Of a stretch of DNA of 64,000 bases, positions 84 through 63,546 are shown one piece after another (the first letter of the stretch is position 1; the number at the start of each line of letters is the position of its first letter). Location: positions 1-64,000 of the forward strand of contig WRJX01000101.1 of assembly GCA_009778385.1 (NCBI GenBank). Reading direction: 5' to 3'. Made by a program: the position numbers and the translations under genes. Below the pieces are notes generated by a model. That model did no database searches. It was not told the origin of the DNA and saw only the letters and a list, made by a program, of their open reading frames with translations. The stretch is from Candidatus Bathycorpusculum sp. (GTDB taxonomy: Archaea > Thermoproteota > Bathyarchaeia > Bathyarchaeales > Bathycorpusculaceae).

Positions 84-740
84 CTATACATACTCAACGC
101 CTTTGCCGCGGCTAAGTAATCCAAAAGTTGACAAAATAACTCTATTTTTTAAGCCTAAATCGTTTTTTACCCTGTCACTATGTACTAAGGGAATATCTGG
201 GCACCCATGGGGAATCAACTTTAGCTTTTTGCCTGAGAACCCATACTGTTTAAGTAAATCTTTGGTTGTTTGATTCATTACAACAATTATGTCACTACAA
301 GCTACTATTTGGTCAAACACTTTTTTTATCGCGTTTTCAAAACTTGGAAGAACCGTGTGAAGTGTTGTTAACACAGGTTTTTCTATTTTTTCCAGAAAAG
401 TGCAAATATAACTGCCATTTTCTCCCCCAAAAATACCAAATTCATGCTGCAAATTCACAACATCAACAGTTGACCTGTTTAAAAGACCTGCCATGAATTC
501 ATAGTCTTCAGGAGAGTCTCGTCCAATTTTATATTGAATTTGTCCATAAGCCGACTTACAAATACGTTTTCCATCGATTGAAATTACAGTTTGCCCCTTA
601 AGTTTATTAAGTTGGCTAGTTGAACTGACTAAGTCCGAGGTAAAAGTTGCTATTCCACATTTTCGTGGTGGATATGTGCTTATATATGCAATTTCTTTAA
701 CGCTAGCCAATGTGGGGGTACCTAGAGCATGCTTTGCCAA
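84..740 (-). pseudogene. Truncated GT-B glycosyltransferase (N-terminal half only)
   Basis: The 218 residues match the N-terminal Rossmann domain of a family-4-like GT-B glycosyltransferase: a start region with YPPRKCGIATF, then QHEFGIFGG, LHTVLPS and IPHGCPD, and finally the linker LSRGKGVEYV that normally leads into the nucleotide-sugar-binding C-terminal domain. A TAG at 84-86 stops the frame exactly there. I checked the other two frames of the remaining 83 bases and see no continuation, so the catalytic C-terminal half is missing rather than frameshifted. In related genomes such proteins are linked to GH130 enzymes, and one starts divergently at 889. Either a pseudogene or a free-standing donor-less domain; I favour decay. 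A TATA-like ATATATAC lies only about 15-25 bases upstream of the ATG, so any transcript would be nearly leaderless. Confidence 0.7.
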
Positions 741-785
741 TAATTAGTCACGTATATATTAGAGTTTTAGCGGTCTTTAAGCACA

Positions 786-809
786 TGTGACTGTATTATT
801 ACAGTCACA
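786..809. promoter_or_regulatory. Perfect 10-bp inverted repeat, candidate operator
   Basis: Arms TGTGACTGTA and TACAGTCACA are exact reverse complements around a 4-base spacer. The site lies between the divergent glycosyltransferase and GH130 genes, about 30 bases upstream of a TATA-like TTTATATG (841-848) that suits the GH130 start at 889. Position and symmetry suggest a dimeric repressor or activator site; the regulator is unknown. Confidence 0.55.
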
Positions 810-6127: not shown

Positions 6128-7501
6128 TTGATTTTGTTAATGACTACTGCGCCTCCTTCTAATGCGCCATGGTTTCATGGAAAAAGGCTTCCACCCCTTG
6201 GACTCATGTACGTTGCTGCAGCCTTAGAGCAAGCTGGGCATGAAGTACAGATGCTTGATAATTACCTAATGCAGCAAAGTACAGAGGAAGTTCAACAGCT
6301 TGTTTTGAAGCTTCACCCCGTTATTGTTGGTATAACCTGTGGAAGTGCCACCTACAAGAAATGTGTTGAAACTGCAAAAGCCATCAAACAGGTGGTTCCA
6401 GGTTGCAAAATTATTGTCGGTGGATGGCATGCGTCTTATATGCCTGAAAGTTTGCTTGAAACACCTGAAATCGATTACGCGGTTATGGGTGAAGGGGAAC
6501 GCGCAATAACGGAGCTTGCCGCTTTCATTGTGAAAGGAGATTATTTTGGTGCTTCAACCGTTGCAGGTGTAGTCTGTCGAGGCTCCTCAGGGGTTATAAA
6601 AAATGAACCTAAATTTCTTAACATGGATGAGATACCTTTTCCAGCGCGTCATCTTTTGCCGCTGGAAAAGTATGATCGTAACATCGAATTCTTAAAAGCT
6701 AAACCAGCTGACGTGATGAGTATAAGTCGAGGTTGCACCTTTAGCTGTGGCTTTTGTGAGACTAAAAAACTCTGGGGGAACATCAACCGCCAATTCAGTC
6801 CCCAACGTGTTATGGCTGAAGTAAACGATTTAGTAGCCAAATATAATACCAAAGGCATTTACTTTATCAATGATAATTTTACCATGCGTAAGAACCAAAC
6901 CGCCGAGTTCTGTGACTTACTCATTAAAAGTAAACTGGATCTTGAATGGGTCTGCGACACCAGGGTCGATCTCATCAACCAAGAAATCCTTGAGAAAATG
7001 GCCTCTGCAGGCTGCAAAACCATTTGGTTTGGCATAGAATCTGGTTCTCAGAAGGTTCTTAATCACATTAATCGTAACATAACCTTAGAACAAGTAGAAG
7101 AAGTTTTCAAGATGTGCCGCAAAGTTGGTATCCAAATTGCGTGCTCATTTATGTTGGGCATGCCTAGCGAAACCAAAGAAGACTTAATGGCATCTTATCG
7201 TTTTGCTGACAAGCTTGATGCTGACTGGTGCCAATTCAATGTGTTTATCGCTTATCCAGATAGCCCCTTGTGGCGTGAAATGCTTGAAACCGGTAAATAC
7301 ACACAGCTTGACGATTTTCTGTACAGTTATAAAACCGATGAATTTGACTACGATGAATTGATGCGCATACAGAAACAGTTCTTCAAAGACTATCACCGTG
7401 CGCCAAAGCGTATCCTGAAACGTATTCAAAGAGAAGGTGTGCTAAACTTTGCCAAACGTCGTCTCCATCCATCTCCCGTTGACAATGCAGGTATGGCATA
7501 G
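6128..7501 (+). CDS. B12-binding radical SAM protein (RS1)
   Basis: A 457-residue class-B-type radical SAM enzyme. Residues 1-140 form a cobalamin-binding Rossmann-like domain (PPLGLMYVAAALEQAGHEV, then GGWHAS near residue 98 and MGEGE). The radical SAM barrel follows with the CxxxCxxC cluster motif at Cys203, Cys207 and Cys210 inside SRGCTFSCGFC, and GIESGSQ as the SAM-binding segment. Such proteins typically methylate or rearrange unactivated carbons in lipids, cofactors or natural products; the substrate is unknown. The start is a TTG at 6128 behind CAGGAG (6111-6116). An ATG at 6121 is out of frame and reads only 13 codons. It is followed 12 bases later by an aldo/keto reductase gene, implying co-transcription. 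Confidence 0.88.
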   Translation: MILLMTTAPPSNAPWFHGKRLPPLGLMYVAAALEQAGHEVQMLDNYLMQQSTEEVQQLVLKLHPVIVGITCGSATYKKCVETAKAIKQVVPGCKIIVGGWHASYMPESLLETPEIDYAVMGEGERAITELAAFIVKGDYFGASTVAGVVCRGSSGVIKNEPKFLNMDEIPFPARHLLPLEKYDRNIEFLKAKPADVMSISRGCTFSCGFCETKKLWGNINRQFSPQRVMAEVNDLVAKYNTKGIYFINDNFTMRKNQTAEFCDLLIKSKLDLEWVCDTRVDLINQEILEKMASAGCKTIWFGIESGSQKVLNHINRNITLEQVEEVFKMCRKVGIQIACSFMLGMPSETKEDLMASYRFADKLDADWCQFNVFIAYPDSPLWREMLETGKYTQLDDFLYSYKTDEFDYDELMRIQKQFFKDYHRAPKRILKRIQREGVLNFAKRRLHPSPVDNAGMA

Positions 7502-7513
7502 GTAGGAGTACAG

Positions 7514-8317
7514 TTGCAAAAGCGGAGACTTGGTCGAACAAATCTTCAAGTATCCATAGTTGGCTTCGGCGGAACATGGATATCTGAAATAGACAAGTCC
7601 ACCGCTGTAGACGTTGTTAGAAGAGCGTTTGAGTCTGGTATTAACTATTTTGACACTGCTCGCTGGGACGGGGATAGTGAAGAAAAAATCGGGTGCGCCC
7701 TAAAAGATGTTCATGATCAATGTATTATAGCTACAAAAACTGGCTCCCGAACCAAGAAAGAGTCGCTTGAAGACTTAAGAAATAGCCTTCGTCTTCTCCA
7801 AATTGATCATGTTGACATTATCCAACTGCACGGTATTGATGATGAAAAAACTTTAAACGCCGCCATGGGTCCAGATGGGGTTCTGCAAACCTGTAAAGAA
7901 GCGCAAAAGGAGGGTTTAACGGATTTTATTGGTATAACTGGTCACAAACCCCAGGTTCTAACAACAGCTGTCAAGACCGGCGAATTTGACATGGTTCTTG
8001 TTCCACTTAACGTTGTAACCCGTCAAGCTGAAGAGGCACTCTTACCAGCCGCTAAGGACTTAGATGTTGGTGTAATAGCAATGAAGCCGCTTTCAGCAAA
8101 AACATCTAATCTCATAACCTGTATGTATCAGCCTTCACTTTCACTAGTTTCCGATGAACCTGAACTCAAAGCGCTCCTTGGACAAAACAAGGACGAGATG
8201 GTTCATAATCTTCTTAGATACAACTTATCAAAAGACATTACCTCAACGCTTCTAGGGGTACGTTCAGTTGTTGAAGTTGAAACCGCGCTAAAGCAGGCGC
8301 AAACTATCAAGGTTTAA
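7514..8317 (+). CDS. Aldo/keto reductase domain (5' part of a frameshifted gene)
   Basis: 267 residues of an NAD(P)H-type aldo/keto reductase barrel: LGRTNLQVSIVGFGG, the FDTARWDGDSE region holding the catalytic Asp/Tyr neighbourhood, KTGSR, QLHGID and GVRSVVEVE near the end. A TTG at 7514 has GGTAGGAG just upstream. The protein stops at TAA 8315-8317 (in AAGGTTTAACTG). In homologues the barrel runs straight into a ferredoxin-like C-terminus, and that segment is present here in the +1-shifted frame immediately downstream. Adding one T to the TTT run restores a continuous reading through KVLTAIEEKC. So this is probably one ~366-residue gene with a one-base deletion, a sequencing error, or a programmed shift. 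It lies 12 bases after RS1, suggesting a redox partner role. Confidence 0.82.
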   Translation: MQKRRLGRTNLQVSIVGFGGTWISEIDKSTAVDVVRRAFESGINYFDTARWDGDSEEKIGCALKDVHDQCIIATKTGSRTKKESLEDLRNSLRLLQIDHVDIIQLHGIDDEKTLNAAMGPDGVLQTCKEAQKEGLTDFIGITGHKPQVLTTAVKTGEFDMVLVPLNVVTRQAEEALLPAAKDLDVGVIAMKPLSAKTSNLITCMYQPSLSLVSDEPELKALLGQNKDEMVHNLLRYNLSKDITSTLLGVRSVVEVETALKQAQTIKV

Positions 8318-8610
8318 CTGCCATAGAGGAGAAATGTTTTGACTTCAAACTTGGTGCCTACTGTCGTGACTGTGGTTTGTGTATGCCTTGCCCTGAAAAA
8401 GTAAATATCCCCGCGATATTGCGTTTTTACTCTTTCTACTCAGTTTATAGATTGAAAAATTGGGCCCGTAAACTCTATAACGGTTTAGAGGTAAAATCTG
8501 ATAAATGTACCAACTGTGGATTGTGCCAACAAAAATGTCCCTATAACCTGCCAATAGAAAGTATGCTTAGAGAAGCGCATGAGAAACTGTGCTTAGTTTT
8601 TTTGGAATAG
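8318..8610 (+). CDS. Ferredoxin-like C-terminal domain of the aldo/keto reductase (out of frame)
   Basis: Read in the frame of 8326, this segment carries two [4Fe-4S] motifs, CRDCGLCMPCP and CTNCGLCQQKCP, separated by about 45 residues, ending at TAG 8608-8610. This matches the C-terminal extension of the aldo/keto reductase-ferredoxin family. No ATG, GTG or TTG in this frame lies upstream of the first cysteine motif; the first ATG (8377) falls inside it and would remove ligands. The domain is therefore not a sensible independent gene and belongs to the preceding open frame. Its end overlaps the convergent methyltransferase gene by 18 bases. Confidence 0.8.
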
Positions 8611-9300
8611 ACAGATAAATGTTGCTGTTGGGGCACCCCACTCTGGTGAATATGTTTTTGATTGAAGTAAGGTGAATTTTTTGCCAAGCATGTGCTGAAA
8701 TTTTTCTACGGTGAACCAGTTTTTGTGGGCGTCATACCGTAAACCTTCAATGCCCTCAGGAGCCTCCAAAATTAGTAGCCCCTTAGGTTTTAGAACTCGG
8801 TAAGCGTCATCAAGAAAGCGTTGGGGATTCCAAAGGTGTTCAACAACCTCTGAGGCTAAAACAACATCGAAAATTTCTGGTTTGAAAGCCAAGTTTTCAG
8901 CGTCTCCTGAGAAAACGTTTGAGACATGGCGTTTGTGAGCCATTGGTGTGATTGTTGGCAAATCAAAACCGATTACTGTGCTACCTTGTTTTGCGATGGG
9001 TTCACTTAATACTCCATCGCCGCAGCCGACATCAAGAACATTTAGGTTTTTACCTCCAATGCTTATCATTTTAAGAAAGGTCTGAATTCTTGCCTGATTC
9101 AAAGGTCTTGCATAAGAAACTGCTGTGCTATGTTGGAATGCAGCTGTGTAGGTATCATATTTTTGCCATTCAATCCAGCCTTGACGGCTTGTATTTCGGT
9201 GGCGGTACAGCGTCTCCCGTATGATAATATGCTGTATCTGCTTTGGATTTCTAAGGAGCCACATCATACCGTGGATGTAGCTTTTGATGCCGCTTGACAT
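8593..9300 (-). CDS. SAM-dependent class I methyltransferase
   Basis: A 235-residue methyltransferase with motif I VLDVGCGDGVLSEPIA at about residues 88-103, the acidic end of strand 2 in IGFDLP, the motif-II-like FDVVLASEVVEHL, and RVLKPKGLLILEAPEG. These are the hallmarks of UbiE/COQ5-like small-molecule methyltransferases. The N-terminal ~75 residues are helical and probably form the substrate lid. It is the only gene on the minus strand inside the radical SAM array and overlaps the end of the aldo/keto reductase locus by 18 bases in convergent orientation. It may act on the same product as the radical SAM enzymes, but this is inference from position only. Confidence 0.85.
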   Translation of the reverse strand: MSSGIKSYIHGMMWLLRNPKQIQHIIIRETLYRHRNTSRQGWIEWQKYDTYTAAFQHSTAVSYARPLNQARIQTFLKMISIGGKNLNVLDVGCGDGVLSEPIAKQGSTVIGFDLPTITPMAHKRHVSNVFSGDAENLAFKPEIFDVVLASEVVEHLWNPQRFLDDAYRVLKPKGLLILEAPEGIEGLRYDAHKNWFTVEKFQHMLGKKFTLLQSKTYSPEWGAPTATFICLFQKN

Positions 9301-9568
9301 TGGCTTTTATTGATTATTCCCTGCAATTTAAGCATTACAGCATCCAACAAAACTTGGAAAGCCATTTCTGATCAGCAGAAGATACGAACGAAGTAGACCT
9401 TGGGCTTTAACTTAATGTTTATCTCAAAATGTTGTCTAAATGTCTTTTAAACGTGAAATTTTATAGTTTTTGCTTTTCCATGTTTTTTTAATAGAAAACG
9501 TTGGGTTCAAAAACGTATATTAATCAAAGTATCCAATCTATCAAGCGAACGAGATTAGGGGAAAAAAT

Positions 9569-10954
9569 TTGAAGTCTCATGTTACATTTGTCAACCCGCC
9601 TTATCCACAAGGATCACATCAGCATCCGCCATTTATTCCACTAGGCATCGGATATTTGGCTGCTGTCTTAGAGAAAGCTGGGTATCAAGTAGATGTTATT
9701 GATTGCCAAGCAATGAAACTAACTTATGACCAGTTCCGAGAAGAACTTGCCACGCGCAACCCTGATGTTGTAGGTATGACTGCAACCACTTTGATTTACA
9801 AGTCAGGTGCTGAATGTGCAAAAATTGCCAAAGAGGTAAACCCCAAAATCGTAACCATACTTGGCGGTTCGCATGTTTCTTTCTGGGACGAAAATGCTCT
9901 AAAGGAATATCCGGAACTTGACATTGTTGTACGTAAAGAAGGCGAAGGTACCCTTCTTGAGTTAATGGAACGAATAGAAGCAGGAAAGCCTTACTATGAT
10001 GTAGTAGGTACCACATGTAGAAACGGTGATGAAATAGTTAAAAACCCCGACCGTCCCTACATCCAAGATCTTGACTCCCTGCCTTTCCCGGCGCATCATC
10101 TTTTCCCACTTGACTACCTCAACAAGTTCGGCGTAGTTATCTTTCCAGTGTACACAAGTCGTGGCTGCACTTTTTGGTGTAATTTCTGCTCAGCTGTACG
10201 CATGTTCGGTAGAGGTTACCGCATGAGAAGTCCTAAAAGCGTGGTCGATGAACTCGAACACCTTGTCAAAGATTTTGGTGCTCAACAATTCACATTTTAT
10301 GATGATGCGTTCTCAGTTGACCAGAATCGTGTTCGAGAAATCTGTCGGCTCATAAACGAGCGAGGCTTGAAGATTAAGTGGGACTGCGAAACCCGTGTAG
10401 ACATGGTTGACCGTGATTTACTGCAGACCATGAAAGACGCAGGTTGCATTGCTGTCTGGTTTGGTGTTGAAGCTGGTTCTCAAATGGTTATTGACGCCAT
10501 GGGCAAAGGTTACAAACTTGAAACTATAAAGACCTCATTTAAAACTGCTCAAGATGTCGGTTTAATGACTGTTGCAAGCGTTGTTCTAGGCTTTCCTGAA
10601 GAAACTCCAGAAACTTTGCGGGAAACCACTAAATTTATCGAAGAACTTAACCCTGATGATGTTGGTTACTACATTGCTACTCCGTACCCTGGAACTCCAA
10701 TGCATGAGCTTGTAACTCAGAAAGGCTGGTTAAAAATTACCGATTTCAATCGTTATGACACTGCCACTCCAATCTTTGAAACCCCATACATCAGTTCAGA
10801 GCAGCTCAAAGAGATGCGTGAAAAAGCCTTCCAAAGTTTCTACATACGTCCAAGTTACATTTGGAAGATGTGGCGAAAAGGTGGTGTCTATGGAAAATCA
10901 GCCACAAGAACCGCTTTGGCGCACTTGCGAAGAAAAATAAAAGCAGCTTTTTAG
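9569..10954 (+). CDS. B12-binding radical SAM protein (RS2)
   Basis: A 461-residue protein with an N-terminal cobalamin-binding domain (VNPPYPQG, PLGIGYLAAVLEKAGYQV, LGGSHVS at about residue 98, EGEGT) and a radical SAM domain with Cys200, Cys204 and Cys207 in SRGCTFWCNFC. FYDDAFSVD and FGVEAGSQ follow as typical barrel segments. The C-terminus is basic. It is plainly a close paralogue of RS3, 33 bases downstream, sharing ATPYPGT and RYDT(A/T)TP segments, so the pair arose by tandem duplication. The start is a TTG at 9569 preceded by AGGGGAAAAAA. Substrate unknown; see the findings for a membrane-lipid hypothesis. Confidence 0.87.
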   Translation: MKSHVTFVNPPYPQGSHQHPPFIPLGIGYLAAVLEKAGYQVDVIDCQAMKLTYDQFREELATRNPDVVGMTATTLIYKSGAECAKIAKEVNPKIVTILGGSHVSFWDENALKEYPELDIVVRKEGEGTLLELMERIEAGKPYYDVVGTTCRNGDEIVKNPDRPYIQDLDSLPFPAHHLFPLDYLNKFGVVIFPVYTSRGCTFWCNFCSAVRMFGRGYRMRSPKSVVDELEHLVKDFGAQQFTFYDDAFSVDQNRVREICRLINERGLKIKWDCETRVDMVDRDLLQTMKDAGCIAVWFGVEAGSQMVIDAMGKGYKLETIKTSFKTAQDVGLMTVASVVLGFPEETPETLRETTKFIEELNPDDVGYYIATPYPGTPMHELVTQKGWLKITDFNRYDTATPIFETPYISSEQLKEMREKAFQSFYIRPSYIWKMWRKGGVYGKSATRTALAHLRRKIKAAF

Positions 10955-10987
10955 CTGTTTTTCTCTTCTCATATTTGATGGTGATTT

Positions 10988-12376
10988 ATGATGGGTGCAA
11001 CTGCAAGAGTCATGTTGGTTAATCCTCCCGCATTACAAGGTGTCTTTCACCATCATCCCTATCTGCCTATGGGATTAGCGTATCTAGCAGCTGTTCTTGA
11101 AGAGAAAGGTAACCAAGTAGCCGTTTTGGATTGCAGCGCTGAAGGTATAGACCAAAATCAGCTTAAACAGAAGCTCGTTGAGTTTAATCCTGATGTTATT
11201 GGCATAAGCTCAATGACTCCTATGGTGCTTTCAACTATGATGGCTGCAAAAGGTGCCAAAGAAGCATGTCCAAATGCCACCATCGTTTTGGGTGGTCCAC
11301 ATGCTACTTTTATGGATAAAGAAATCCTCGCCGCTGAACCAGCTGTTGATGTGATTGTCCGTGGCGAGGGTGAAGTAACTTTTGCAGAATTAACCAAAAG
11401 AATCATCAACGGTGTCGGTTTAAACTCTGCTGATGGTATTACTTATCGTCATCAAGGCCAAATTGTACAAAATCCAAACCGCGACTACATCCAAAATTTG
11501 GATGATTTACCCTTTCCAGCATACAAGCATTTTCCGCTTGAAAAATATCGACTTTTTGGCAAACTATTCTTTCCCGTAATTACCAGCCGTGGCTGCCCCT
11601 TCCAATGCAACTTTTGCACCACCAGTCGCATTTTGGGCAGACAATATCGTGTACGTAGCCCACAAAATATTGTTCACGAACTTGAACTGCTAAAACGTGA
11701 CTACAGCGCTGACTCTTTTACCTTCTATGATGACACATTAACACTTGATAAGAAACGACTCTGTGACATCTGTGACGAAATAAAACGTAGAAAACTTAAC
11801 ATTCCATGGGACTGCCAAACTCGTGTAGATCAAGTTAGCGAAGAAATGTTTGCTAAAATGAAAAACACCAATTGTCAACAAGTTTTCTTCGGTGTGGAAT
11901 CAGGATGCCAAAGCGTGCTTAATGCGGTAAATAAACGCACTGCCGTTGAGCAGAATGAAGCTGCCATTAAATTGGCAAAGAAATCAGGTTTGTTTGTTGC
12001 TATATCTATTATTATTGGCTATCCAGGAGAAACAGCGGAGATGCGTAAAGAAACCTTTGATTTCATTAGGCGTACTGAACCCGATGACGTGTATCTTTGT
12101 ATCGCAACACCATACCCCGGCACGGAATTGCGCAAGGAAGTTGAACAGCTCGGATATAAAATATCCTCTGACTGGAGTCGATATGACACCACAACACCCG
12201 TATTTGAAAATCCTTTACTCTCAGACGAAGAAGCTATACGGATACGCAAAGAATTCTACAATAACTTCTACTCACCAAAATATGCACTGCGCCACATGTT
12301 TAAGCGCAATTTTTATAGCCGCGTCATGTCCCGAGTCGCTGTTAACCACCTGATTTGGCGTATAAAAGGTCATTAA
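10988..12376 (+). CDS. B12-binding radical SAM protein (RS3)
   Basis: A 462-residue paralogue of RS2 with the same layout: cobalamin-binding domain (VNPPALQG, LAYLAAVLEEKGNQV, LGGPHATF near residue 101, GEGEV) and radical SAM domain with Cys203, Cys207 and Cys210 in SRGCPFQCNFC, then FYDDTLTLD, FGVESGCQ and IATPYPGTE. The start is an ATG at 10988, followed at once by a second ATG; GGTGATTT precedes it. The stop of RS2 is 33 bases upstream, so the two are likely one transcript. Two related enzymes side by side suggest successive modifications of one substrate or closely similar substrates. Confidence 0.87.
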   Translation: MMGATARVMLVNPPALQGVFHHHPYLPMGLAYLAAVLEEKGNQVAVLDCSAEGIDQNQLKQKLVEFNPDVIGISSMTPMVLSTMMAAKGAKEACPNATIVLGGPHATFMDKEILAAEPAVDVIVRGEGEVTFAELTKRIINGVGLNSADGITYRHQGQIVQNPNRDYIQNLDDLPFPAYKHFPLEKYRLFGKLFFPVITSRGCPFQCNFCTTSRILGRQYRVRSPQNIVHELELLKRDYSADSFTFYDDTLTLDKKRLCDICDEIKRRKLNIPWDCQTRVDQVSEEMFAKMKNTNCQQVFFGVESGCQSVLNAVNKRTAVEQNEAAIKLAKKSGLFVAISIIIGYPGETAEMRKETFDFIRRTEPDDVYLCIATPYPGTELRKEVEQLGYKISSDWSRYDTTTPVFENPLLSDEEAIRIRKEFYNNFYSPKYALRHMFKRNFYSRVMSRVAVNHLIWRIKGH

Positions 12377-12474
12377 ACGTAATCTGCTCTTTTCCAAAAA
12401 GCTTCTATCTCTTTTAGTTTTAGCAAAAGTTTTTCAGATGCCAAAAACCATACTTGATTTGAGATGGCAATTAG

Positions 12475-13947
12475 ATGCGAGTTTGCCTCATAAATCCGCC
12501 TAGAATTCAACCGAAAGCTTGGGGAAAACCAAGCGTTTACCAACCAATGGATATAGCCTATGTAGCTGCTATGCTGGAAAAAAAGCATGAAGTGTTAGTT
12601 ATTGATGTACCTAATGAAGGTTGGGAGCTTCTCGAAGAGATTAACGGCGGAAAATATCGACAGGGTTTATCGAACACGGAAATTGTTGCCCGAATACAAA
12701 AATTCCAACCAAAACTCATTGTTATCTCAGTACCTTATTCAGGCTGGTCCACCGCAGCTTTTGCGGTAGCTGAAACCATTAAATCTGCCGACAAAAACCT
12801 CAAAATTGCACTTATCGGTTTACATCCATCCTCACGCCCTAACGAATGCCTAAAGCAAGACAACGTGGATTTTGTAGTGATCGGCGAGCAGGAAATAACA
12901 ACACTTGAACTCGTTAACACCATAGAAAAGGATGATGTTCAGAATTTAAAGAATGTTAAAGGATTAGGTTTCATAGAAAACGGCAAAGTTGTAATTACAG
13001 AGGCAAGACCCGTTATTGAGAACCTCGATTCATTACCTTTTCCCGCGCGCCATTTGTTGCCTATGAAAGAGTTTTTTGAAGCCGCTAAAAAAATCCCCAT
13101 CAGCGGCAACTTGAAGAAGCCCTCAATTCGTATGCTTACCACCCGTGGCTGTCCATATGGTTGCATCTTCTGTTCAAACCACCTAATCATGGGACGTAAA
13201 TGGCGTGCACGTAGCGCTGAAAACGTAATTGCTGAGATAGAACAAATAGTCAATGCCTACGGTATACATCAAATTGACTTCCTAGATGATAATATCGCTT
13301 TCAACCGTGAGCGCTTAGTAAAAATTTGTAATATGTTAATCGAAAAACGCCTAAACATTGAATGGTGTACTCCTAACGGGGTTCGTGCCGACGCTTTAGA
13401 CCCTGAACTTTTGGCTTTAATGCGCAAGGCAGGTTGCCAAAAAATTTTAATTGCCCCCGAATCAGGTGTTCAGCGTATCGTGGATGATGTTATCAAGAAG
13501 AAGCAGAGCCTTCAATGTGTAGAAGAAGTAGTGAATGCTGCTCACAAAGTCGGCATCAAAGTTGGATGTTTTTTTATTTTAGGAATGATCGGTGAAACCA
13601 AAGAAGACATGAAACAAACCATCCAGTTTGCTCACAAACTGCGGCATCTGGGTGCTGAATACTTCTACTTCAGTTATGCTACACCTCTTTACGGCACCGA
13701 GTTGTACCGCCAAGCTAAAGAGGGTAACTATTTAACAAGTGACTTTAGTGACGATGCTCTCTCTGCAGTACAACCTCTAATTGAAACATCCGAATTTACC
13801 GCTGATGATCTACGTTGTCTAGCTGCCGAGGCAAATTTGGTAAACCCAACAGTTACCCATGAACGACTGCTACGTGCAATTCGTAATCCCAAAAAAGCAC
13901 TAGAAATTTTGCTTGCAAGAAACAGGATCAAACAAAAAGTTTCTTAA
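12475..13947 (+). CDS. B12-binding radical SAM protein (RS4)
   Basis: A 490-residue protein of the same fold but a different subgroup from RS2/RS3. The B12 domain starts LINPPRIQP and has IGLHPSS where the others have GG(S/P)H. The radical SAM cluster ligands are Cys226, Cys230 and Cys233 in TRGCPYGCIFC, followed by FLDDNIAFN, TPNGVRAD and APESGVQ. A conserved NPKKAL near the C-terminus is shared with RS5 at 62 kb, which is its closest relative in the window. ATG at 12475, about 100 bases after RS3. The absence of the usual GG before His may affect cobalamin binding. Substrate unknown. Confidence 0.86.
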   Translation: MRVCLINPPRIQPKAWGKPSVYQPMDIAYVAAMLEKKHEVLVIDVPNEGWELLEEINGGKYRQGLSNTEIVARIQKFQPKLIVISVPYSGWSTAAFAVAETIKSADKNLKIALIGLHPSSRPNECLKQDNVDFVVIGEQEITTLELVNTIEKDDVQNLKNVKGLGFIENGKVVITEARPVIENLDSLPFPARHLLPMKEFFEAAKKIPISGNLKKPSIRMLTTRGCPYGCIFCSNHLIMGRKWRARSAENVIAEIEQIVNAYGIHQIDFLDDNIAFNRERLVKICNMLIEKRLNIEWCTPNGVRADALDPELLALMRKAGCQKILIAPESGVQRIVDDVIKKKQSLQCVEEVVNAAHKVGIKVGCFFILGMIGETKEDMKQTIQFAHKLRHLGAEYFYFSYATPLYGTELYRQAKEGNYLTSDFSDDALSAVQPLIETSEFTADDLRCLAAEANLVNPTVTHERLLRAIRNPKKALEILLARNRIKQKVS

Positions 13948-59253: not shown

Positions 59254-59733
59254 TTATCCCCCACCTGGAGTACCATGGAATGGAGCACCTTCCCAGAGCA
59301 TCTTCCACCAATCATCTTCAGTGATGGTTTCACCGTGAACAATAGTTTCTAAAACCCCTTTCAACAGTGCATGGTGCCTCTTTTCGTCAGCCAAAATGGC
59401 ATTCAAAAGCAGCTTCACTTTATTGTTAGTGACTGTTGGAAGTACAAGCTCAATTTTCTCAATTAACTCAGATTCCAGCTGAATATGCTTCTCAATTAAT
59501 TCTCGATGTTTATCCAAATCCCCTTGAGTTAATGCTGTTGAAGTTTCCGTAAGCAACATATAAGCTGCTTCATACATTTCTGCGTGTTTCACTGAATCAA
59601 GCGAGATGCCTTTCAAAACACCTTTAACCGGAGGATTTTTCATGTCCACCAAAGCTTTTTCTAAGGAATCAACAATCTGATTCTCAACTTTAATTTGTTT
59701 CTGGATAAACTCTAAAAAATTATTTACTGCCAA
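59254..59733 (-). CDS. Ferritin-like domain protein
   Basis: 159 residues in a four-helix layout. ExxH-type metal ligands occur in KHAEMYEAA and ADEKRHHALLK, with Glu residues in helices 1 and 3 (KVENQIVDSLE and LESELIEKIE). This matches the diverse rubrerythrin/DUF892-like ferritin folds. C-terminus ends GTPGGG. TTG start at 59733. Probably the first gene of an operon with copB. It may store or oxidise iron, or act in peroxide defence; there is no rubredoxin domain. Confidence 0.75.
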   Translation of the reverse strand: MAVNNFLEFIQKQIKVENQIVDSLEKALVDMKNPPVKGVLKGISLDSVKHAEMYEAAYMLLTETSTALTQGDLDKHRELIEKHIQLESELIEKIELVLPTVTNNKVKLLLNAILADEKRHHALLKGVLETIVHGETITEDDWWKMLWEGAPFHGTPGGG

Positions 59734-60084: not shown

Positions 60085-60369
60085 TTACTTTAGTTTGCCT
60101 ATTTCTTTTGTTATATCGATAGGTGAAGTGTAAGTTTTATTAGGTAACTTGAAAATTACGTCCATCACATCATTTGGTGCACCTTTTCCTTGTGCGTTGC
60201 TTACTAGTTTTTCTTTGGCTGCAGGGTAATGTATTCCCCCTAGGTATCTTTCAACTATTGCTGGGCTGACACGACCTGATTTTCCGCTTTTGTTTGTATA
60301 TTGACGCTTTGAACCTTTTCCCTGACCTATTCCGTTACGTTTTGTAGCTGCTTCCTCTTGACTATTCGT
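60085..60369 (-). CDS. DUF2795-family protein, apparent ACG start
   Basis: A 94-residue frame with clear protein character: a disordered N-terminus (QEEAATKRNGIGQGKGSKR), then SPAIVERYLGGIHYPAAKEKL, NAQGKGAPNDVMDVIFKLP and YTSPIDITKEIGKLK, which match DUF2795 domains of stress-associated small proteins. No ATG, GTG or TTG exists in this frame between the upstream stop and the protein. A perfect GGAGGTGA (60377-60384) lies 7 bases before an ACG at 60367-60369, the spacing used by the neighbouring KGG genes. The start is therefore non-canonical or lost to a sequence error. It is the last gene of the KGG cluster. Confidence 0.7.
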   Translation of the reverse strand, partial: TNSQEEAATKRNGIGQGKGSKRQYTNKSGKSGRVSPAIVERYLGGIHYPAAKEKLVSNAQGKGAPNDVMDVIFKLPNKTYTSPIDITKEIGKLK

Positions 60370-60437
60370 AGTTTCTTCACCTCCAAATAGACATGTTTAT
60401 AAAAAATGGAAAACAAAAAAATTAGTTGAGGCTAATT

Positions 60438-60548
60438 TTATTCCTCTTCGAATTCTTTTCCTTCTTCAACAAGTTTTTTAACTCTTTGTCCACCCTTATG
60501 TCCAGCCTCTTCAACTGTCATTTTACCTTTATTTTTATCTGTCGACAA
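60438..60548 (-). CDS. KGG-repeat microprotein, 36 residues
   Basis: TTG start at 60548 behind GGAGGTGA gives MSTDKNKGKMTVEEAGHKGG, then QRVKKLVEEGKEFEEE. It is the minimal one-motif version of the KGG family and differs from the solitary 46-residue gene at 40 kb mainly by a shorter linker. It lies 52 bases after the 85-residue KGG gene, probably on the same transcript. Confidence 0.8.
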   Translation of the reverse strand: MSTDKNKGKMTVEEAGHKGGQRVKKLVEEGKEFEEE

Positions 60549-60600
60549 AACTTTCACCTCCAAAATAAAAATTTAAAATTTGCAGACAAAATATTGTTAC

Positions 60601-60858
60601 TTATTTGTTTTCTTGTTCTTTTCCTTCTTGAATGAGTTTGCGGACTCTTTGTCCTCCTCTGTGTCCTGCTTCTTCAAGGCTTGTTTTGCCTCGTGCCTCT
60701 ATAGTTCCTTCGTGTTGCATTGCTCGTTTGGAGCCACCTTTACTTCCAATTTCGCTGTAGAATTCCTCGCCATGTGTTTCGGACGTTTTTAATCCGCCTC
60801 TTCTGCCTGCTTCTGCAACACTCATTTTTCCTCTTTTGGATTCATCATCCATTGGCAT
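60601..60858 (-). CDS. KGG-repeat stress protein, 85 residues
   Basis: ATG at 60858 (MPMDDESKRGK) with GGAGGTGA upstream. The order of units is SVAEAGRRGGLKTSETHGEEF, EIGSKGGSKRAMQHEGT, EARGKTSLEEAGHRGGQR and the basic/acidic tail VRKLIQEGKE. Each unit carries an R/K-GG motif preceded by a short helix. The protein is hydrophilic and glycine-rich, like bacterial general stress proteins of the GsiB type. A copy of the shared promoter element is about 75 bases upstream. Confidence 0.88.
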   Translation of the reverse strand: MPMDDESKRGKMSVAEAGRRGGLKTSETHGEEFYSEIGSKGGSKRAMQHEGTIEARGKTSLEEAGHRGGQRVRKLIQEGKEQENK

Positions 60859-60928
60859 GCGTTTCACCTCCATTGAACATGTTTAAAATTCAAGGTTGCT
60901 TTCTTAAGGTTCTAGCTTGAACCACGGC

Positions 60929-60947
60929 TATTAAACGTATGTTGCTG
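60929..60947 (-). promoter_or_regulatory. Shared KGG promoter element, copy 2
   Basis: Plus-strand TATTAAACGTATGTTGCTG, matching copy 3 in 14 of 19 positions and located about 75 bases before the 85-residue KGG gene. The core TATGTTGCTG reappears inverted next to copy 3. Confidence 0.45.
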
Positions 60948-61107
60948 TCGTAGCACAGCTACACCGACGATTTTTGTCACTCACTTTTAAAAAATATAAT
61001 GTAATAAGAGAAATAAATTAGTAAAATTATGAAAATTTAGTTAAAAAATAAAATTTATACAACAATTTTATTTTTCTTTCAGATTCTTGATTTACTCTTT
61101 TAACTTT

Positions 61108-61179
61108 TTATCTTCCCTTGTGTCCGACTCTTATAATCCAATTCTTCTTTATGGGTCTTCTTTCTTTTCTTTTGGATAA
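61108..61179 (-). pseudogene. Probable KGG gene relic
   Basis: A perfect GGAGGTGA (61184-61191) is followed by a frame reading LSKRKERRPIKKNWIIR and VGHKGR before a stop. The position after the SD, the basic start and the terminal GHKG(G)R mirror an intact KGG gene (compare EAGHKGGQR), but the conserved middle is degenerate and no start codon remains (TTA where the others have TTG). It looks like a decayed member of the family. Confidence 0.5.
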
Positions 61180-61242
61180 GTTCTCACCTCCAACAGAAAA
61201 TAAATTAAAAACAAACTGGAAACTAACCTGCATAGCAACTGC

Positions 61243-61437
61243 TTATTTTTTCTCCTCGTACTCTTTTCCTTCTTGAATGAGTTTGCGTACTCTTTGACCA
61301 CCTTTAGGTCCGCCAATTTTTCCACCTTTTCTTCCGATTTCGCTGTAAAATTCTTCACCATGTGTTGCTGCTGTTTTTAATCCGCCTCTTCTGCCTGCCT
61401 CCTCAACACTCATTTTTCCTTTTTTCTCATCTGACAA
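61243..61437 (-). CDS. KGG-repeat stress protein, 64 residues
   Basis: The TTG at 61437, not the upstream frame opening at 61455, is the start: GGAGGTGA is located just before it and MSDEKKGKMSVEEAGRRGG is the family N-terminus. Units: AGRRGGLKTAATHGEEF, EIGRKGGKIGGPKGGQR and the tail VRKLIQEGKEYEEKK. It is an intermediate-length member, lacking the HEGTxEARGKTS block of the longer ones. Confidence 0.86.
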   Translation of the reverse strand: MSDEKKGKMSVEEAGRRGGLKTAATHGEEFYSEIGRKGGKIGGPKGGQRVRKLIQEGKEYEEKK

Positions 61438-61499
61438 TTTTTTCACCTCCTGCAAAACATTACCAAAAATTTGCTAAAAACAGTCAAAACCTAGAATTT

Positions 61500-61823
61500 T
61501 TAGGCTTTCTCTCGTTGCTTGCCTTCTTGGATTAATCTTTTAACCTTTTGTCCTCCTCTGTGTCCTGCTTCTTCAAGGCTTGTTTTGCCTCGTGCTTCTG
61601 GTGTTCCTTCATGCTGTTTTGCTCTTTCTGAGCCACCCTTGCTTCCGATTTCACTGTAAAATTCTGGTCCACGTTCTGCAGCAACTTTTTCACCGCCTTT
61701 ACGACCTATTTGTTCATAAAATTCCCGACCGTGCGTTTCAGCAGTTTTTTCGCCACCGCGTCGTCCTGCTTCAGCCACAGTCATTTTACCTTTTTGTTTT
61801 TCTTCTTGAGAACGCATACTCAA
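61500..61823 (-). CDS. KGG-repeat stress protein, 107 residues
   Basis: The longest member: TTG at 61823 behind CGGAGGTGA gives MSMRSQEEKQKGKMTVAEAG. Four R/K-GG units follow: RRGGEKTAETHGREF, RKGGEKVAAERGPEF, SKGGSERAKQHEGT and HRGGQKVKRLIQEGK. The second unit looks like an internal duplication of the first (HGREFYEQIGRKGG and RGPEFYSEIGSKGG). First gene of the cluster, with the shared promoter element about 70 bases upstream. Confidence 0.88.
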   Translation of the reverse strand: MSMRSQEEKQKGKMTVAEAGRRGGEKTAETHGREFYEQIGRKGGEKVAAERGPEFYSEIGSKGGSERAKQHEGTPEARGKTSLEEAGHRGGQKVKRLIQEGKQREKA

Positions 61824-61884: not shown

Positions 61885-61903
61885 TCATAAACATATGTGG
61901 TTG
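61885..61903 (-). promoter_or_regulatory. Shared KGG promoter element, copy 3
   Basis: Plus-strand TCATAAACATATGTGGTTG, 17/19 identical to copy 1. It overlaps a palindrome with arms TATGTGG and CCACATA (61894-61910), and GCAGCAACATAC at 61911-61922 is the inverted core of copy 2. The element thus combines a TATA-like box with adjacent inverted sites for a regulator. Confidence 0.55.
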
Positions 61904-62061
61904 CCACATAGCAGCAACATACCCATACAACAGAGAGAACGTTGATAAAAACCACAAAACAAGATTATATCTCTTAATAACGTGAATCTTTTTTTCGTCT
62001 GATTTTAAGGCTAATTTAAATATTTCAAAACTGTCAACTAAATAACTTGTAAAGTGTTATC

Positions 62062-63546
62062 ATGAAATTTCTCCTAGTAAACCCGCCTCAAACGTTTTAT
62101 ATAGATTCAGAACCACCTGCAGGTAGCCTACCTTTGGGTTTGATGTATCTTGCTGCTGTTCTTGACAAAGCGGGTTATGAGGTTAAACTTTTGGATGCTT
62201 TCATGGCTGATTTTGTACCTCAAAAAAACGGTGACACTGTAACCGTTGGTATGCCATTCAATCAAATTGAAGCAGAAATATATCGCCAAAACCCTGATGT
62301 TGTGGGTATTTCAGGACCCTTCACCAGCCAAATCGGTAACACCTTAAAAGTAAGTGAATTATCAAAAAAAGTCAACCCAAATATTCTCACAATCGTAGGC
62401 GGTTCCCATGTCTCTACTATACCGAAAGAGTTTTTGAAAGAAGCTAAAACTGTCGATATAGCTGTTATTGGCGAAGGCGAATATGCTCTTCTTGAAATTG
62501 CCGAGTACCTTGAAGGCAAAAAACCTTTAAGTGATATTTTAGGTATCGCTTACCGCCAAAATGATGACGTTATTATCAATGCTAAACGACCTTTCTTGGA
62601 AAATCTTGATGAGTTACCCTATCCTGCTTATCATCTTGTCGATATGGAACATTATTTAAATAACAAAAAAATTGGTTACCGAAGCTTCCAAAATCGTGCC
62701 ATATCAATGATTACCAGTCGTGGTTGCCCATTTAACTGTTGCTTTTGTTCTGTCCATTTACACATGGGCAAGGGATTTCGAGCACACTCAGCGCAATACA
62801 TCTTAAACCACATACAACATGTTGTTGATAAATACAATGTCAAAAACATCTTTTTTGAGGATGATAACCTGACTTTTGATCTTAAACGATTCGAAGCAAT
62901 ATGTGACGGTTTAATTGAGCGCAAAATTAAAGTTGGCTGGGAAACTCCAAATGGCGTTCGCGCAGACTGCCTAAACCTGTCATTACTTAAAAAAATGAAG
63001 CAATCTGGTGCGGTTAGCATTTTTGTTGGTGTAGAGTCAGGTGACCAAGAAATCCTAAATAAAATCATCTGCAAAAACCTTGACCTTAATCATGTGGTTG
63101 AATTTGCCAAAAATGCTAGGCAGATCGGACTTAAAACTGGTGCATTTTATATTATCGGCTTTCCAGGTGAAAAAAAGGAAAACATGCAGCGCACTGTAGA
63201 TTTTGCTTTAATGCTCAAACGAGATTATGACGTAGGTATGCACTTGTTTACTGCAACCCCCTCTTATGGTACACGGTTGTATGAGCAATGCAAAAAGAAC
63301 GGTTATCTTGAGGTAGATTTGTCATGGGATTTGTTTGGTTCTTCAGCAAGACAACCCATGGGACACTCACTAATCCATACCGAAGACTTCACACCCCAAG
63401 AAGTCAAAGAAATCGCTAAACAAGCCCTAAAAGAATACAAACGACTATCCTTAACCAACAACATCAAAAATCCTAAGAAAGCTCTACAAACAATTTATCA
63501 TCAGCCACAATTACTTGGTAGATACTTAAAAAATCTATTCTCTTAA
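62062..63546 (+). CDS. B12-binding radical SAM protein (RS5)
   Basis: A 494-residue relative of RS4. N-terminal cobalamin domain (LLVNPPQTFY, PLGLMYLAAVLDKAGYEV, VGGSHVST near 112-119, IGEGEY) and radical SAM domain with Cys222, Cys226 and Cys229 in SRGCPFNCCFC. FFEDDNLTFD, TPNGVRAD, GVESGDQ and the C-terminal NPKKAL motif link it to RS4 at 12.5 kb. ATG at 62062, with no good SD within ten bases. It stands alone, about 48 kb from the array. Substrate unknown. Confidence 0.87.
   Translation: MKFLLVNPPQTFYIDSEPPAGSLPLGLMYLAAVLDKAGYEVKLLDAFMADFVPQKNGDTVTVGMPFNQIEAEIYRQNPDVVGISGPFTSQIGNTLKVSELSKKVNPNILTIVGGSHVSTIPKEFLKEAKTVDIAVIGEGEYALLEIAEYLEGKKPLSDILGIAYRQNDDVIINAKRPFLENLDELPYPAYHLVDMEHYLNNKKIGYRSFQNRAISMITSRGCPFNCCFCSVHLHMGKGFRAHSAQYILNHIQHVVDKYNVKNIFFEDDNLTFDLKRFEAICDGLIERKIKVGWETPNGVRADCLNLSLLKKMKQSGAVSIFVGVESGDQEILNKIICKNLDLNHVVEFAKNARQIGLKTGAFYIIGFPGEKKENMQRTVDFALMLKRDYDVGMHLFTATPSYGTRLYEQCKKNGYLEVDLSWDLFGSSARQPMGHSLIHTEDFTPQEVKEIAKQALKEYKRLSLTNNIKNPKKALQTIYHQPQLLGRYLKNLFS

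Follow-up and report, generated by a model that had tools for sequence, protein, structure and literature searches.

A KGG-type hydrophilin gene array with a DUF2795 partner in Candidatus Bathycorpusculum, a probable member of a dyad-controlled general-stress regulon in Bathyarchaeia

The window (the whole stretch of 64,000 nucleotides analyzed here, from contig C101 of a 2.18-Mb Candidatus Bathycorpusculum MAG, class Bathyarchaeia) contains an array of genes for small KGG-type proteins together with a DUF2795 gene, and this array is kept by purifying selection across the genus. The reading we favor, with reasonable confidence, is that it is a hydrophilin array belonging to a general-stress regulon of Bathyarchaeia, controlled through a dyad element, with products that would shield macromolecules. 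The genus Candidatus Bathycorpusculum has been described (PMC10684969), and its congeners (Bathycorpusculum or Bathyarchaeota) come from termite guts, bogs, fens, palsa, sediment, and digesters. The genes of the window copy are as follows.

61500..61823, minus strand: KGG gene A, 107 aa, TTG start; PF10685 43.4 bits, cut-off 20.4
61243..61437, minus strand: KGG gene B, 64 aa, TTG start; PF10685 21.2 bits, scored on a slightly longer frame than these coordinates
about 61077..61192, minus strand: KGG relic between B and C, closest to the E type in alignment with E and E36
60601..60858, minus strand: KGG gene C, 85 aa, ATG start; PF10685 22.2 bits; orthologues at 17 loci
60438..60548, minus strand: KGG-type gene E36, 36 aa, TTG start; by alignment an E orthologue minus exactly one 20-residue unit
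60085..60369, minus strand: DUF2795 gene, 94 codons, ACG start at 60369-60367 behind GGAGGTG; PF11387 53.5 bits, cut-off 25

All array genes are co-directional, and GGAGGTG lies 6-8 nt 5' of the starts. The earlier note had described a minus-strand cluster of KGG genes with a DUF2795 gene, a leader before every gene, and proteins of 36, 64, 85, and 107 residues; the frames agree on each of these points, with four intact KGG genes, one relic, one DUF2795 gene, and GGAGGTG ahead of each. A, B, and C pass the Pfam KGG cut-off, and E36 alone falls under it (14.9 bits vs. 20.4).

Hydrophilins are recognized by a glycine content over about 6-8% and strong hydrophilicity. The array proteins belong to this general class, with 14-20% Gly, GRAVY values of -1.3 to -1.45, and neither Cys nor Trp. 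They consist of an N-cap (KGKMTVEEAG), zero to two inserted 20-residue units of the group-1-LEA-like form RxGGEKTAETHGxEFYSEIG, and a C-cap (HKGGQ+V+RLIEEGK); A and C carry an extra spacer of about 27 residues, and genome G006 has a lone gene without any unit (42 aa, locus L209). The proposal that the proteins are assembled from the same units in different numbers thus holds as regards the modular build, but the units are really 20 residues long and stand between fixed caps. The related idea that units are being gained and lost fits the decaying window copy and not the family, because the paralogue types are fixed between species of the genus and E36 of the window is the only array gene seen to have cleanly lost a unit. 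No convincing relative of solved structure was found for the KGG proteins, and the AlphaFold model of A was poor (pLDDT 59).

The array is conserved across the genus. It is present, whole or partial, in 21 of 32 genus genomes as judged by KGG matches, and in the regions of 21 genomes that were read the order A-B-C-D-E-DUF2795-F is fixed and co-directional. Sizes are characteristic of each type (A 105-107, B 60-64, C 82-85, D 59-62, E 48-57, and F 64-96 aa), and TTG is the start of nearly all KGG genes in arrays. Orthologues of A share 80-86% identity with a dN/dS of 0.01-0.07 in close pairs, and B orthologues are present at 20 loci. In close pairs dN/dS is 0.01-0.23, mostly below 0.2, and in other lineages dS ranges up to saturation. 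Because about 20 congeners have orthologous arrays in the same order and dN/dS in close pairs is mostly 0.01-0.2, the array is not a chance arrangement, and the dedicated archaeal array with a DUF2795 partner proposed in the earlier note proved to be a conserved feature of the genus. Among 257 Bathyarchaeia genomes, the Pfam KGG model gave no match outside the genus. The class-wide search missed a KGG gene of a different genus (G147, locus L280), which passes Pfam when scored alone, so restriction of KGG genes to Bathycorpusculum is not absolute.

Genes flanking an array can be conserved along with it, and two neighbors in the window are.

59254..59733, minus strand: ferritin-like protein, 159 aa, conserved downstream neighbor; Pfam Rubrerythrin 22.5 bits vs. 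cut-off 22.8
62062..63546, plus strand: B12-binding radical-SAM gene (PF02310, PF04055), conserved divergent upstream neighbor in nearly all array genomes

The ferritin-like gene lies beside the array in 19 genomes including that of the window, with 58-70% identity in the 18 others, and a flavodoxin gene lies downstream in 13 genomes. Of the peroxide and metal defense genes that the earlier note had placed next to the array, only the ferritin-like gene is a conserved companion; the P-type ATPase and FprA stand beside the array only in the genome of the window. The 64-kb window also has five or more broadly similar radical-SAM-like genes (6128-13947 and 62062-63546), four of them close together; the Pfam test among them covered the last one only (62062-63546).

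Promoters of the array share an inverted-repeat element. The pattern TGTKRYTG-N8-CARYMACATA lies against a TATA-like box in the A and C promoters, with a weaker match at F. Three places in the window match it.

61888..61919, minus strand: A-promoter dyad, TGTTGCTG-N8-CAACCACATA abutting TATA-like GTTTATGA, about 64 nt 5' of the A start; 0 mismatches
60932..60963, minus strand: C-promoter dyad; 1 mismatch
778..809, minus strand: third dyad, before a glycosyltransferase gene (84-740, minus strand, PF13439); 2 mismatches

These account for four matches, one place reading on both strands, compared with none in 100 shuffles of the window. The dyad is kept before 21/21 A genes and 17/17 C genes found; the A and C promoters of all array genomes have TGTTRCTG-N8-CARCMACATA-nn-TTTATG in common, and F promoters have a weaker form. 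Genome-wide, array genomes have 15-55 sites each, whereas the reversed control gives 0-1; the consensus of the sites is TGTGGTTGt-N6-ACAGTCACATA-n-cTTTAT, a palindrome directly 5' of a TATA-like box. A start preceded by a Shine-Dalgarno sequence falls at +30 to +90 (median 57) in 41 of 96 distinct sites (43%), compared with 6/96 on the opposite side and 2.5% at random positions. Several contigs of G022 (C11, C24, C45, C64, and C87) have many near-identical dyad sites, e.g., TGTTACTGTTTATTCACAGTCACACATCTTAA, perhaps an expanded gene family with the same operator.

The genes that follow the dyad indicate what it may control. In four genomes of the genus (G000, G006, G010, and G015), it precedes genes for Hsp20, PEBP, cytochrome b5, fasciclin, an ATP-cone protein, solitary KGG genes, Lrp-type RAM proteins, wHTH genes (HTH_45), many small Zn-finger-like proteins, and a glycosyltransferase; glycosyltransferase genes similar to that of the window are dyad-led in G006, G010, and G015. 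In other genera and families of Bathyarchaeia, its targets include Fe/Mn SOD, AhpC/TSA peroxiredoxin, a ferritin-like protein, carboxymuconolactone decarboxylase (CMD), DsrE, and a KGG gene. A further target in G217 is Hsp20-like by eye only, and the fragment gave no Pfam match. Because the dyad stands before stress genes and others beyond the array, the KGG array appears to have joined a wider regulon, and because the element is also found ahead of SOD, peroxiredoxin, and heat-shock genes, here or in related archaea, the array is very probably a stress-regulated general-stress module. As many dyad targets lack an assigned function, the stress reading rests on a minority of them. A small HTH_45 protein (G000:C98:17601-17825) has the dyad in its own promoter, has orthologues in 20 or so dyad-bearing genomes, and matches the regulon in its distribution over most of the genus. 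As a close orthologue is missing from dyad-rich genomes such as G002, G017, G116, G144, G147, and G217, it was rejected as master regulator and is counted as a regulon member.

Archaeal activators are expected to bind directly upstream of the TATA-like box. We infer from this placement that the dyad is bound by an activator, not a repressor. In the model we propose, at least two array promoters (A and C, with a diverged third at F where present) would carry one dyad operator against a TATA-like box, and a candidate dimeric activator would bind it and switch on A-B and C-D-E-DUF2795 as units. Exposure of this anaerobe to oxygen, heat, drying, or starvation would induce the array jointly with genes for Hsp20 and antioxidant enzymes and with numerous further small genes; the company of dyad genes suggests oxygen, heat, and drying as the likely stresses. 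The KGG proteins, made in quantity, would then keep other macromolecules from aggregating, as has been proposed for GsiB or group 1 LEA proteins. A rather less probable explanation, but the strongest competitor, is that the dyad is a repressor site or marks a promoter class unrelated to stress (e.g., growth-phase or nutrient), with the array simply one among the many small genes that it governs. A site abutting the TATA-like box would be compatible with repression, and the dyad precedes many unknown small proteins, Zn-finger-like and RAM-domain proteins, a glycosyltransferase, and transporters. Against this stand the Hsp20 targets in two species of the genus and the SOD, peroxiredoxin, ferritin-like, and CMD targets in other genera, and the wholesale disappearance of the dyad from some lineages (below) would be surprising for a constitutive promoter class.

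The DUF2795 gene differs from the KGG genes in its start codon. Its start is ACG in 14 of 17 species and ATG at the same place in the other three, with a Shine-Dalgarno sequence in front. The window gene has no in-frame ATG, GTG, or TTG before the domain, and in several species an in-frame stop lies between the Shine-Dalgarno sequence and the ACG. Among Shine-Dalgarno-led frames in array loci, TTG is the rule, and 14 of 15 ACG candidates are DUF2795 genes. A non-AUG start such as this ACG, conserved so widely, would be unusual for archaea. The protein has a basic N-terminus, which AlphaFold predicts with low confidence, and a C-terminal DUF2795 domain, predicted confidently as a small helical domain. 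In the general-stress model, it would be a basic partner of the KGG proteins held at a low dose through its ACG start.

DUF2795 also occurs with KGG genes in bacteria. In Azotobacter vinelandii, it directly follows a KGG gene; in Stutzerimonas azotifigens (L161:3837-5632), it directly follows a six-gene KGG array; and in Billgrantia (L163:1953-5342), a Mn-catalase, DUF2795, and a KGG gene lie inside 3.4 kb. These are 3 of 40 KGG loci outside Bathyarchaeia, a small sample whose members are not independent, and the Azotobacter and Stutzerimonas linkages may be one event (both are Pseudomonadaceae). Plasmid-borne DUF2795 genes had no KGG gene within 4 kb in the seven loci examined; two of them were near ferritin-like genes. 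The linkage makes DUF2795 a candidate partner for KGG proteins. We suggest only tentatively that the two form a conserved functional pair in archaea and bacteria, with the DUF2795 dose set by ACG in Bathycorpusculum and the pair placed within a class-wide stress regulon in Bathyarchaeia. A second DUF2795 gene, which stands alone and has a TTG-type start, was observed at G003:C79, G008:C100, G011:C116, G014:C40, G023:C118, and G028:C49, as well as at L072 (G021), and no KGG match was reported near these genes.

Alpha/beta-type SASPs are another family of small proteins to which the array was compared. It is unlikely that KGG proteins bind nucleic acid like SASPs with DUF2795 as a DNA-binding helper, so that DNA and not protein is protected. 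Such a role would suit the basic character of A, B, C, and DUF2795 (pI 9-9.9), and E36 does exceed the SASP cut-off (PF00269, 25.4 bits vs. 22), but this protein is acidic (pI 5.8), and A, B, and C score 13.1-16.1. Family membership was rejected because the other array proteins fail the cut-off; SASP matches of any kind occur in 3 of 61 genomes, two of them over the cut-off. For DUF2795, winged-helix DNA-binding proteins are among the best Foldseek matches, but none is significant (best E 4.8).

Gene decay marks the array of the window itself, and its nearest relatives lack the array. In its gene content, the window copy is decaying: it has neither D nor F, E is short by one unit, and the relic between B and C keeps its GGAGGTGA leader but has lost its start and is interrupted by stops. 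Comparison of gene order revealed no orthologous gene at the relic position in other arrays. In a DNA polymerase B tree, the window genome groups with nine array-less genomes (86-89% identity, 100% support). The earlier note had linked its reading to the presence of the arrangement in close relatives; the nine nearest lack it, but 20 more distant congeners have it. The nine sisters have 0-2 dyad sites, compared with 20 in the genome of the window, and G016, which lies inside the array-bearing clade, has neither array nor dyad sites. If these absences reflect loss, the array and the dyad apparently disappeared jointly on two occasions, a count of inferred events that depends on one marker-gene tree and on MAGs. 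G021 is the single exception, with 16 dyad sites and no KGG match; since a 3.2-kb contig of this genome has an A-type dyad at its end, the array of G021 is probably missing through assembly. It is very improbable that the array genes form a family that drifts and is for the most part dispensable, with recent ancestry alone behind its conservation: the gene losses and relic in the window and the nine array-less sisters make drift plausible for the window's own lineage, but for the genus this reading is largely refuted by dN/dS mostly 0.01-0.2, with dS up to saturation elsewhere, and by fixed gene order and promoters.

Neither archaeal KGG proteins nor multi-gene KGG sets are new, with examples in Methanothrix, Methanocella, and, among bacteria, Stutzerimonas (PMC12904285). 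The dyad was not found in 40 loci of Methanothrix, Methanocella, and bacterial KGG genes at up to three mismatches. A narrow search of open-licence literature returned no description of a dyad regulon, of an array with DUF2795 inside it, or of a conserved ACG start. Bacterial KGG proteins such as Bacillus subtilis GsiB, Escherichia coli YciG and YmdF, and Pseudomonas aeruginosa PA2146 have the KGG repeat in common with the array proteins and are likewise small and hydrophilic, and KGG proteins have been linked to biofilm growth (PMC9262955). The archaeal array differs in having up to six genes, distinct N- and C-caps, common dyad promoters, and DUF2795 inside. Moreover, the sigma factors that control bacterial KGG genes (RpoS, SigB) cannot apply to an archaeal array.

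Group 1 LEA proteins (Em, PF00477) resemble the array proteins in being hydrophilic and glycine-rich, with a 20-residue unit in varying copy number. Their unit is of the GGxTRREQLGEEGYSQMGRK kind, and the group is stated to occur in three domains (PMC8946055). Membership in LEA_5 (PF00477) was rejected, as scores of 22.4, 14.4, and 19.7 bits are far under the Pfam cut-off of 40. An archaeal group 1 LEA was proposed for Methanocella by Campos et al. (2013), as cited in a later paper (PMC12904285), where caution is advised in naming the Methanocella relatives LEA or KGG.

The closest parallel in gene arrangement is the array of S. azotifigens, which also has co-directional KGG genes with varied unit numbers, including a zero-unit form, followed by DUF2795. 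It differs in being bacterial, in having partly other units (EQLGPEGYSE type), and in that the dyad was not found at L161. Enterobacterial yciGFE(-katN), which is under RpoS control (PMC9262955), combines a KGG gene with ferritin-like proteins, as seen in the E. coli genes yciG-yciF-yciE, and so parallels the array and its ferritin-like neighbor, a pairing found in 19 array genomes. A further likeness is the Mn-catalase gene close to KGG and DUF2795 in Billgrantia. That neighbor gave no match to DUF892 (PF05974); the window protein and one orthologue match Rubrerythrin/Ferritin_2 weakly. yciGFE(-katN) further differs in having a single KGG gene and a bacterial promoter, and no DUF2795 lies in the stretch compared. 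KGG proteins have served as general-stress markers without a mechanism, and the identity of the archaeal ones is disputed (PMC12904285). For the abundant class Bathyarchaeia, whose stress regulation was not described in the papers returned by our narrow search, the dyad offers a concrete, testable regulon into which KGG genes are tied.
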